Virus record (IMG/VR): IMGVR_UViG_3300033233_000131
Location: 1-30,233 of that record
Strand: one strand, 5' to 3'
Origin: a virus
Length of the DNA: 30,233 nucleotides
Positions 150-19,768 of this stretch are shown one piece after another (position 1 is the first letter of the stretch; every line of letters begins with the position of its first letter). The notes under the pieces are model-generated. The model was not told the origin of the DNA, made no database searches, and saw only the letters and a program-made list of their open reading frames with translations. Both the position numbers and the translations under genes were made by a program.

Positions 150-178
150 AAGATATAATATATCATAGCCTATGTCAA
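150..178 (-). promoter_or_regulatory. Early promoter reading leftward across the genome joint
   Basis: On the minus strand a perfect -35 box TTGACA (173-178) is followed after 17 bases by TATCTT (150-155), or after 16 by ATATCT, within a very AT-rich stretch. A strong ribosome binding site and the ATG at 126 follow. Two small odd-centre palindromes overlap it: CATAGCCTATG (164-174) and GATATAATATATC (152-164). They could be operators. It is the only strong promoter-like site ahead of the first genes, so it is probably the main early promoter. Confidence 0.65.
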
Positions 179-10195: not shown

Positions 10196-10737
10196 AGGAC
10201 CGGCCTCCGGTAATGGTTCAGGATTGCCTGCTGATAAGGGTTCAATTGAAACTCTTCTCGCTTCGTAATTGAGCCGTCAGGGAAACTCCGGCTTGACTCG
10301 CCCCAACCCTTGTCTTTATAAGGCTTCAATGCGGTAGCGATTAGCTCAAGATTGACCTGCTTTAAATCAGCGATATCTGACGCATTCCAGCCTGCCGTAT
10401 AGGTCAAATAATAAGTTTTATCTGGACTCCACAACCCGCATAAATTTCTGATAAAGTAATCATGAATAATAAAATCATCGCCCTCAACATAGCTATTTCC
10501 ATCAGAGTCGGTCAGGTCCCAAACAGAAACAATCGGATAATTTCTCGGAGTAAGCACACCTGAATAAGTAATCGGCTTTATCGCTTCTGCTGCGTAATCA
10601 GCTTGAAGAATATCGCAGTCTAATTCCCGTTGAAGAAATTTAAAAGTAGCGTCGTTAAGATAAGTCAGCACCGAATCCCATTGCGCCGAGGTCTCACCCA
10701 AATAGCTTTTGATATCAGTTAGCGTTAATATCGCCAT
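10192..10737 (-). CDS. Head-tail connector protein (gp6-like)
   Basis: 181 aa. It starts with 'LTLTDIKSYLG', the standard opening of gp6/gp15-type head-tail connectors, followed by helices ('YLNDATFKFLQRELDCD') and a beta insertion with 'YYLTYTAGWN' and 'ADLKQVNLELIATALK', both diagnostic of this family. It forms the ring under the portal. AGGAG lies upstream of the ATG, inside the preceding small gene. Confidence 0.82.
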   Translation of the reverse strand: MAILTLTDIKSYLGETSAQWDSVLTYLNDATFKFLQRELDCDILQADYAAEAIKPITYSGVLTPRNYPIVSVWDLTDSDGNSYVEGDDFIIHDYFIRNLCGLWSPDKTYYLTYTAGWNASDIADLKQVNLELIATALKPYKDKGWGESSRSFPDGSITKREEFQLNPYQQAILNHYRRPVL

Positions 10738-10898
10738 GCTTTTCTCCTCTGAGGCTCAAGCATTTTATGTTCATAAGCCCAGCCCATCTTCAAAAAGAAC
10801 ATGGCAAGCGGAGCGGGGAGAGCCCGACGCTCCCCCCGCTTATAGACTTGCCCTCGGTATTCCACATCAAGCAGAAATACCACGTTAATTCTTCTCAT
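10725..10898 (-). CDS. Small conserved-type head gene of unknown function (57 aa)
   Basis: Hidden gene between capsid and connector. The ATG (10896-10898) overlaps the capsid stop as ATGA and the TAA (10725-10727) lies 13 bp inside the connector gene, so it is translationally coupled on both sides. The protein reads 'VVFLLDVEYRGQVYKRGERRALP' in two short runs followed by 'LAMFFLKMGWAYE'. Short proteins of this pattern sit next to capsid genes in many siphoviruses. Their role is not known to me. Confidence 0.75.
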   Translation of the reverse strand: MRRINVVFLLDVEYRGQVYKRGERRALPAPLAMFFLKMGWAYEHKMLEPQRRKAWRY

Positions 10899-12016: not shown

Positions 12017-12115
12017 ATCTTTTACCTCACTTTTACTTTGGCGGCTTCCCTCTGCGGTGGATTAACCGGCCGCAGTAGAAAGTGCCAATTTATTTATGCT
12101 CTGAATAATTTTTAT
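12017..12115 (-). promoter_or_regulatory. Leader of the capsid gene with a perfect 6-bp hairpin
   Basis: This is the longest gap between head genes. CTGCGG (12052-12057) and CCGCAG (12070-12075) form a stem with a 12-base loop about 35 bases ahead of the capsid start. No U run follows on the transcribed strand, so it is not a normal terminator. It may stabilise or process the mRNA for the most abundant protein. Confidence 0.45.
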
Positions 12116-16584: not shown

Positions 16585-16780
16585 CTTTCACCTCCACAAA
16601 GCCAACGGCTATTTGTCTATCTGCCCTGTGGAGCTCGTTAATGCCAGAAATTAGCTCATCAGACGGGCTATCAACCTCTAAGACAATCCGCATTGCCTTA
16701 TCTCCAGAAACCAGGCTTTTAATCCGCACTTCTTTTATCAATGCTTCAAAAGAAACCTGCTTTAAGCCAGCCCGCTTCAT
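16577..16780 (-). CDS. Small unknown protein upstream of terminase (67 aa)
   Basis: A short alpha/beta protein with strands 'EVRIKSLVSGDKAMRIVLEVD' split by a turn, then a helix 'DELISGINELHRADRQ' and a final strand 'IAVGFVEVKDG'. I do not recognise a named family. Overlaps both neighbours by 4-8 bases, so it is part of the lysis-terminase transcription unit. Confidence 0.65.
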   Translation of the reverse strand: MKRAGLKQVSFEALIKEVRIKSLVSGDKAMRIVLEVDSPSDELISGINELHRADRQIAVGFVEVKDG

Positions 16781-17115: not shown

Positions 17116-17813
17116 TTGCTAACCAAAGCATGAATTCCAAACCCCGCCGCCAGACCTAAAAGCAGTGTCCAGATTTTCTGCCTTTTCTGGCTATTGATTT
17201 GCTTTTGATAATTATTTAGCAGGGAATTCAAGCTTGTTTTCTCTTCAAGCCATAAGGTATTTTTCTGTCGCCAGAGTCGGTCTGTTTCTTTCCACAGAAA
17301 AACCTGGTTCTGGAGGTTTAATATTTCTTTCTCTTGAACCTGGCTTTTTTCTTCTAACGCTGGAATTTTTGCCAGACTAAATTCTTCCCATTGAAGCAGG
17401 ATTGATGTGTTTTTCTTAAACGCCGCCAGACTAAACCTCGCCCCAGCGTCAATCTTTTCAACGCCATTGTCTTTTAAAATCCGCCTCGTGGTCTGAACCA
17501 TCTCGTCTGGCGTCATCGCCTCAACCTGGCCCTGAATTTCAGCCAGACGCTTTTCACTCTCTCTGAGCTTTGCTAACAGCTCAGCTTTTTCTTTCTCGAG
17601 TCCTTGAAATTTTGCCTCAAGGTTCTTATTCAACTCGGCGATTGTCTTTATCTGGCCGTCAAGCGTCTTTGCCTGCTTTTCCAGCTCGGCTATTTTCTCT
17701 TTTTCTGCCTTCGCCTCAGCCTTCAGCCTTGAAACTCGCCCCTGCTCATAGAAAAACAGGCCCGCAAATAAAATCAACCCGATCAGGATTGTGACAACCA
17801 TTTCCTTTTTCAT
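17112..17813 (-). CDS. Coiled-coil membrane protein, spanin-like candidate
   Basis: 233 aa with a membrane helix at each end: residues 5-23 ('MVVTILIGLILFAGLFF') and about 214-231 ('IWTLLLGLAAGFGIHAL'). The middle is coiled coil at 30-105 and 150-205, with a short non-coiled part containing 'MVQTTRRILKDNG' between. A long periplasmic coiled coil next to lysozyme and holin-like genes suggests a role in disrupting the outer envelope, but it lacks the lipobox of an o-spanin. No ribosome binding site: the start overlaps the upstream stop (ATGA). Confidence 0.55.
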   Translation of the reverse strand: MKKEMVVTILIGLILFAGLFFYEQGRVSRLKAEAKAEKEKIAELEKQAKTLDGQIKTIAELNKNLEAKFQGLEKEKAELLAKLRESEKRLAEIQGQVEAMTPDEMVQTTRRILKDNGVEKIDAGARFSLAAFKKNTSILLQWEEFSLAKIPALEEKSQVQEKEILNLQNQVFLWKETDRLWRQKNTLWLEEKTSLNSLLNNYQKQINSQKRQKIWTLLLGLAAGFGIHALVSK

Positions 17814-18676: not shown

Positions 18677-18837
18677 TGCTTTTTATCCCATTTTAAGACA
18701 AAGTTTGTTCTGGTAACCTGCCGCTCGAAGGTTCTTTTTTTACATTTCGGGCAGATAAGAACTCGTTCAAGCGGTTTAAGAGAGTATTTGTCTTTCTCTT
18801 CATAACCGCAGGACTTACACTTATAGTCATAAATCAT
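18673..18837 (-). CDS. Zinc ribbon protein (54 aa)
   Basis: Hidden gene linking lysozyme to the next membrane gene: ATG at 18837 overlaps the lysozyme stop (ATGA), and its TGA overlaps the next ATG. Cys pairs C7-x-x-C10 and C29-x-x-C32 make a zinc ribbon like that of FmdB or small regulatory proteins. The end is basic ('KKRTFERQV'). It may bind nucleic acid; placing it among lysis genes is unusual. Confidence 0.78.
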   Translation of the reverse strand: MIYDYKCKSCGYEEKDKYSLKPLERVLICPKCKKRTFERQVTRTNFVLKWDKKQ

Positions 18838-19310
18838 TGTTCTTTCCCGCCAGAGAGGAAAAGCTCCACCTCGGCTTTCCTTCTCTCAAGTAAACCGGGC
18901 AAATATTTACCGTTACTATAAACCCATCTCATCATCTCATTAGCAATTTCGCTCAACTTCGCCCCGGCCAGAATTTTTTGCCTGACCGTGCTTTCCTGAA
19001 AAGCCGTCCGCCCGATATTAAAAACAAAGCTCACGAGGGCAGCAAACTGGTCTTCATTTAGCTCGTCAAACTTCTCCTGAAGGGAAATTTTTAAAAAGCC
19101 TAAAATTAACTTGATATCCTGATTGAGGATTGCCTCGGCCTCTTCTTCTGAAATCTCCCCCCATCCCTCATCTGGTTCAATCCTGTGACCATAGCCAATC
19201 GTGAGATAACCGCCAGGGCAACGATAAGGTTTTGAAGAAAAGCCCTCAAAATGAATAATAAGAGCTTTTGCTATATCTTGAGCAAGCCGGAGCTTTTCTT
19301 CTATATTCAT
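18834..19310 (-). CDS. Endolysin, phage lysozyme (GH24)
   Basis: 158 aa muramidase that cuts the glycan strands of peptidoglycan at lysis. Catalytic E22 ('HFEGF'), C31 and T37 ('TIGYGH') follow the E-8aa-(D/C)-5aa-T rule, with Cys in place of the Asp of T4 lysozyme. 'AALVSFVFNIG' is the usual second motif. There is no signal or SAR helix, so a holin should be needed. The start has no ribosome binding site; a 66-bp inverted-repeat structure ends just 5 bases upstream, hinting at control of translation. Confidence 0.93.
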   Translation of the reverse strand: MNIEEKLRLAQDIAKALIIHFEGFSSKPYRCPGGYLTIGYGHRIEPDEGWGEISEEEAEAILNQDIKLILGFLKISLQEKFDELNEDQFAALVSFVFNIGRTAFQESTVRQKILAGAKLSEIANEMMRWVYSNGKYLPGLLERRKAEVELFLSGGKEQ

Positions 19311-19314
19311 TTTT

Positions 19315-19380
19315 TCGGGCCCGCCCGGGATTAATTTTAATTTTACGAGCGCCCAACCCGGGACTTATCCCAGGGCCCGA
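19315..19380. repeat. 66-bp symmetrical GC-rich inverted repeat
   Basis: GGGCCC palindromes at 19317-19322 and 19373-19378 flank CCCGGG palindromes at 19324-19329 and 19357-19362. The outermost 8 bp pair perfectly and an extra small stem GGGA-4-TCCC lies at 19360-19371. On the transcribed strand the base of the stem is 5 bases from the lysozyme ATG, so a folded leader could hide the start. Confidence 0.8.
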
Positions 19381-19415
19381 GTATAATATAATCATTGTTT
19401 TTTTATTATTAGAAG
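19380..19415 (-). promoter_or_regulatory. Possible late promoter (-10 only)
   Basis: The minus strand has TATATT (19385-19390) and TATACT (19380-19385) in an AT-rich run directly ahead of the long inverted repeat. At the right distance upstream the bases are TCTAAT or similar, far from TTGACA. A late promoter that needs a phage activator, or is read through from the early unit, would look like this. Confidence 0.3.
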
Positions 19416-19504
19416 AAATGCGGTATTAGAGGCTGGAAAAGATGTCCCGGCTGGACGCAAAACCTGTCCATCAAGACGGCTTGACAGAATTTAAAAATAT
19501 GCTC

Positions 19505-19768
19505 TTAAAGACAAATCGTCTCGATTTTGTTATCTTCTTTCCTAAACCAAATTTCTTTTTCCCCTGGCTTCTCTGCTGTTTTTATAAGGCCGATTAATTC
19601 TTTGCTTGGTTTTTCCAAAGATATTGCTATATATCGAACCCTGTCCTTATAAATGGCGATAAGGTCAAATACATATTCATTTCTCGGGAAAATCACATCA
19701 TAACCGACCTGTGCCAGAATTTTTGCCACTCTTTTTTTAAGCCGATAGTGACGCTTTTTATAATTCAT
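19505..19768 (-). CDS. Restriction-endonuclease-fold-like protein, probably degenerate
   Basis: 87 aa from the ATG at 19768, preferred over an upstream GTG (19789) because GGAGG lies just before it. Pattern of the PD-(D/E)XK or VRR/Hjc-like fold: a helix ('KKRVAKILAQVGYDVIF'), 'FDLIAIYKDRVRYIAIS', then a helix and a strand 'EIWFRKED'. The usual E/Q-x-K is replaced by AIS, so catalysis is doubtful. It may bind DNA only. Last gene before the structured gap. Confidence 0.6.
   Translation of the reverse strand: MNYKKRHYRLKKRVAKILAQVGYDVIFPRNEYVFDLIAIYKDRVRYIAISLEKPSKELIGLIKTAEKPGEKEIWFRKEDNKIETICL

Follow-up and report, generated by a model that had tools for sequence, protein, structure and literature searches.

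A gene-free spacer ahead of the lysozyme gene in an uncultured phage genome as a candidate late-operon control region

What is a gene-free stretch of DNA directly ahead of the lysozyme gene of a phage likely to do? We addressed this question in an uncultured phage, using the IMG/VR virus record IMGVR_UViG_3300033233_000131 at its full length of 30,233 nucleotides (hereafter the window). An earlier note, made from the sequence alone, had described the stretch as a highly structured non-coding region that controls the early/late boundary, and had proposed a new late control RNA, an antitermination site in the RNA itself, a packaging site or an origin as its identity. In our analysis, the chance that the spacer is the ordinary late-operon control region of a tailed phage is slightly better than even, and nothing in our results marks it as an RNA or DNA element of a new kind.

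Genome organisation around the spacer

The genome is a circle of 30,106 bp, with an exact 127-bp terminal repeat on the contig at position 1; a repeat of this sort usually indicates that the assembler closed a circle on a k-mer. All genes in the curated list are carried by the minus strand. Only two gaps in this list are longer than 100 bp, 19311–19504 and 127–302, and one lies ahead of each of two gene blocks (positions 1–126 are coding across the circular junction, so 127–302 is the second-longest gap). The two gaps split the circle into a putative early block, extending from 126 through the junction to 19505, and a putative late block, extending from 19310 to 303. The 127–302 gap contains the sigma-70 promoter of the early block. 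The late block begins with lysozyme, followed by holin-like and spanin-like genes and then by terminase, portal, capsid and tail genes, while the early block includes replisome organiser and Cas4-type exonuclease genes. The families identified were lysozyme, the terminase large subunit, portal, capsid, tail tube, an Rz-like spanin and a holin-like protein, together with a metallophosphoesterase, a replisome organiser, a Cas4-type exonuclease and a helix-turn-helix protein. Gene content and gene order fit an early/late boundary between the blocks, and the boundary proposed in the earlier note agrees with this order.

The spacer measures exactly 194 bp from the stop of the 87-aa ORF (19505–19768) to the lysozyme ATG, and no other gap between listed genes is longer, which bears out the claim that 194 bp are kept free of genes (Table 1). 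Three short ORFs that overlap it, at 19246–19395 (minus strand), 19268–19429 (plus strand) and 19442–19597 (plus strand), were considered as hidden genes and rejected: all lacked a PHROG match, and in the sole minus-strand candidate, 19246–19395, the ATG is not preceded by a ribosome site. The spacer contains no tRNA or tmRNA. Within the late block, a 99-bp gap on the minus strand ahead of the capsid gene (12017–12115) contains a CTGCGG...CCGCAG stem and is possibly a second control point.

Table 1. Features of the spacer, its flanking genes and the start of the early block
Feature	Position	Strand	Basis or remark
First early gene	ATG 126, crosses circular junction	-	ORF list
Sigma-70 promoter TTGACA-17-TATCTT ahead of early block	150..178	-	matches 10/12
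Phage lysozyme (endolysin), first late-block gene	18834..19310	-	PF00959 E 4.8e-34; phrog_7
Gene-free spacer between putative early and late blocks	19311..19504	-	ORF list, gap table
GC-rich core, two GGGCCC + two CCCGGG, 8-nt inverted-repeat ends; predicted three-way junction, -29 kcal/mol	19315..19380	-	z only -1.27
AT-rich block, TATACT/TATATT -10-like hexamers, no -35; candidate late promoter	19383..19412	-	best sigma-70 match 8/12
Weak stem GTCC-AGCCG-GGAC, then T-rich stretch; possible weak terminator	19440..19462	-	-5.1 kcal/mol; under terminator-scan threshold
Weak stem CTGTCAAG-CCGT-CTTGATGG, then ACAGGTTTTG; possible weak early-unit terminator	19465..19488	-	read from sequence; shortened piece -4.1 kcal/mol
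87-aa protein, function unassigned, last early-block gene	19505..19768	-	no Pfam/PHROG match; ATG 19768 with strong SD

Palindromes, predicted folding and relatives

Next to the lysozyme start lies a 66-bp GC-rich core with a perfect 8-nt inverted repeat at its two ends (TCGGGCCC/GGGCCCGA), two copies of GGGCCC (19317, 19373) and two of CCCGGG (19324, 19357). The whole window has four copies of GGGCCC and 12 of CCCGGG, and two of each fall within 62 bp in the core. Four such sites in 62 bp were reached in none of 500 dinucleotide shuffles of the genome, a test in which the palindromes were picked after seeing the sequence; when any of the eight all-GC palindromic hexamers was counted, four in 66 bp were reached in 41 of 300 shuffles. 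Thus, the symmetrical 66-bp array that the earlier note described is real as a cluster with inverted-repeat ends, and its symmetry is rough only.

RNA folding was predicted for the whole spacer and for the core. The whole-spacer fold (206 nt) was little better than shuffles (z −0.99). For the 71-nt core, the minus-strand fold had z −1.27, its energy being matched by 19 of 200 shuffles, and the plus-strand fold had z −1.83. By energy, the core ranks 11th of 3017 among 70-nt windows, mainly because of its GC content, and 6 of 383 GC-matched windows were as stable, some of them possibly overlapping the core itself. The core has a predicted outer stem of 7 bp with pair probabilities of 0.75 to 1.0. 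A search for long inverted repeats across the whole spacer gave a local score under the shuffle mean, and comparison with Rfam 15 gave no match at the gathering score, all weak matches being far under threshold. The description of the spacer as highly structured is therefore not supported, since both folds lie near shuffle level and Rfam returned no match. The two further stems that it was said to contain are both present but weak, at about −4 to −5 kcal/mol.

Another part of the window has the strongest local structure. On the minus strand at 10784–10853, a very stable hairpin (GCGGGGGGAGC-GTCGG-GCTCTCCCCGC) lies inside a 57-aa ORF (10725–10898) just downstream of the capsid gene, and the 131-nt stretch around it has z −4.49, far stronger than the spacer core.

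None of the collections searched yielded a homologous spacer. A blastn search with the spacer against phages and plasmids returned only chance matches of 22–27 bp, two exact spacer patterns gave zero matches in viral_contigs, and relatives sought through the 87-aa gene, the replisome organiser and the 18284–18676 gene yielded none. A terminase (TerL) scan identified 39 loci, and the close TerL relatives (L002–L005, 90–98%) stop before the spacer, with matches that end at 17471 (L002 and L004) and 18335 (L003). The one relative found in the lysozyme scan, L041 (56%), has a metallophosphoesterase ORF that overlaps the lysozyme start and has no spacer. In L016, where a metallophosphoesterase gene is ahead of terminase, no stretch of at least 60 bp between the two is free of plus-strand ORFs. 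Because L041 and L016 both lack such a gap, the spacer is, as far as these loci indicate, no general feature of the wider relative group at this place.

L002 and L004 come from a single sample, and each starts at the equivalent of window position 17471, inside the spanin-like gene; this shared start is perhaps a strain break in the assembly. In L003 (1561–3302), coordinates place ~1.3 kb of DNA that is extra relative to the window between the part matching window position 16776 and the terminase gene. The spacer ahead of the metallophosphoesterase gene in L041 (363–470) is a degenerate AGCAAAGCAGAGCGAAGC array. In the genome collection, the terminase has a single relative above 50% identity; it matches at 54% and sits on a Candidatus Aminicenantes MAG contig, a weak hint that Aminicenantes may be the host; a search of the literature on phages of this group found nothing directly useful.

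The spacer could be mostly passive: weak terminators would close the early unit, the rest would be leftover sequence, and the palindromes in it would owe their origin to chance or drift. A fold near shuffle level, the 41 of 300 shuffles with an all-GC palindrome cluster of this size, the lack of any trace in other records and the spacer-free lysozyme start of L041 are all consistent with this. Against it, the GGGCCC/CCCGGG cluster is tighter than in any of the 500 shuffles and 194 bp have been retained although non-coding DNA is scarce in this genome. We consider a passive spacer unlikely; together with the processing site discussed below, it is one of the two main rivals to the late-operon reading.

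Candidate transcription signals and the lysozyme start

A promoter scan found nothing above threshold on the minus strand of the spacer. The best candidate is the AT-rich block at 19383–19412, which adjoins the GC-rich leader, and its resemblance to the early promoter (ATGATNATATTATA) was equalled by 275 of 1000 shuffles. The two weak stems close to where the early block ends, each followed by a short T run, did not pass the terminator scan, as they are too weak or too T-poor. In its layout, the spacer is like the activator-dependent late-operon promoter regions of tailed phages, with a gap before a lysis and structural operon and a −10-like box without a −35. Compared with such promoters, the match here is weak (8/12), and neither an activator nor a binding site for one was identified.

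As an ordinary late-operon control region, the spacer, which immediately precedes the late block and shares its strand, would act at several steps. Early transcription would start at the sigma-70 promoter (178–150) and cover the early genes as far as 19505, and part of it would stop at the weak hairpins just inside the spacer (19488–19440). A late promoter in the AT-rich block would start the lysis, packaging and structural operon, and it would probably need a phage activator because the −10-like box has no −35. The late transcript would then open with the GC-rich 19315–19380 leader, which is predicted to fold over the weak lysozyme ribosome-binding site and may hold translation down. Control of the early/late boundary, as claimed in the earlier note, is thus retained in part: the gene order is best read as pointing to a control region, but the new elements proposed for it gained no positive support.

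Alternatively, the core might be a processing site, at which RNase III or a similar enzyme would cut the folded RNA in a continuous early–late transcript and separate the lysozyme mRNA from the early mRNA. Phage T7 has intergenic RNase III sites. The position of the core exactly between the gene blocks, its high-probability outer stem and the lack of a strong terminator or promoter in the spacer would suit such a role. However, typical RNase III substrates are longer than the 6–7 bp stems of the core, which are interrupted by the junction, and the core fold has a z of only −1.27. Processing seems to us distinctly improbable.

The late-operon reading includes a leader that folds over the lysozyme start. 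The lysozyme ribosome-binding site (GGGCGGG) is weak and lies within the predicted core stem; its anti-SD pairing of −6.3 kcal/mol is the 10th weakest of 47. The predicted cost to open the lysozyme start region is 15.2 kcal/mol, the second costliest of 46 genes (mean 7.3, sd 3.8). When the transcript start was varied, the predicted cost was 10.4 kcal/mol for a read-through transcript, 9.8 and 9.3 for AT-loop starts at 19330 and 19326, respectively, and 15.9 for an RNA that starts just after the AT block. The lysozyme AUG itself is open in the predicted fold. A steady low rate of lysozyme translation on the late transcript is possible.

In phage T4, RNA structure in the leader of gene e (lysozyme) blocks lysozyme translation on early read-through transcripts, and a late promoter (TATAAATA) within the upstream arm yields transcripts without the block (PMC3014915). 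The spacer is loosely similar: a leader whose predicted fold is near shuffle level would cover the lysozyme ribosome-binding site at the putative early/late boundary, and an AT-rich stretch lies within or close to its upstream arm. In contrast to gene e, the upstream arm here has no promoter match, the AUG is predicted to be open, and the predicted opening cost barely differs between the read-through RNA and the RNA shortened from the AT loop. A switch of the T4 type would call for a large gap between the two costs; since they are nearly equal (10.4 versus 9.8 kcal/mol), a simple T4-type switch is not supported.

A stronger proposal is that, in a lineage of uncultured phages, perhaps of Aminicenantes, the 66-nt core acts in cis as a new leader RNA and sets the timing of lysozyme production by covering the start of that gene with its fold. 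We hold this to be slightly less probable again than processing. The new late control RNA suggested in the earlier note received no positive support, given a fold near shuffles, no Rfam match and no homologous spacer in the collections searched.

Origin, packaging and antitermination

The inverted repeats adjoin an AT-rich run, which might suggest that the spacer is a replication origin or a packaging site. Such sites commonly lie near replisome organiser or terminase genes, but here the replisome organiser gene is at 25.8–26.9 kb and the terminase genes are at 15.1–16.6 kb, 3 kb away, and the 127-bp terminal repeat of the contig is at position 1 rather than in the spacer. The GC skew does not turn at 19.3 kb, where the earlier note had suggested looking for a change point, and the spacer holds only one two-copy 12-nt direct repeat, so there is no iteron array. 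We found no positive evidence for either function, and both are very unlikely.

Least credible is a put-like RNA that would bind RNA polymerase as it is made and allow read-through of terminators in the long late operon: the core resembles HK022 putL/putR in being ~70 nt long and close to a possible promoter (putL is ~70 nt, with two stem-loops, just downstream of PL), but HK022 put consists of two adjacent stem-loops that suppress termination in early transcription by way of the beta' zinc-binding domain (PMC9378689), whereas the core has a closed three-way junction as its predicted minimum-energy fold rather than two side-by-side stem-loops, has no Rfam match and lies ahead of late genes for which downstream terminators are putative, leaving this antitermination proposal with no positive evidence.

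The spacer as a probable late-operon control region is mostly of value for annotation: a complete genome of an uncultured phage can be divided into two putative transcription blocks, and the place to seek late control is marked. If the leader times lysozyme translation, it would be a T4-independent case of the same safeguard against early lysis.
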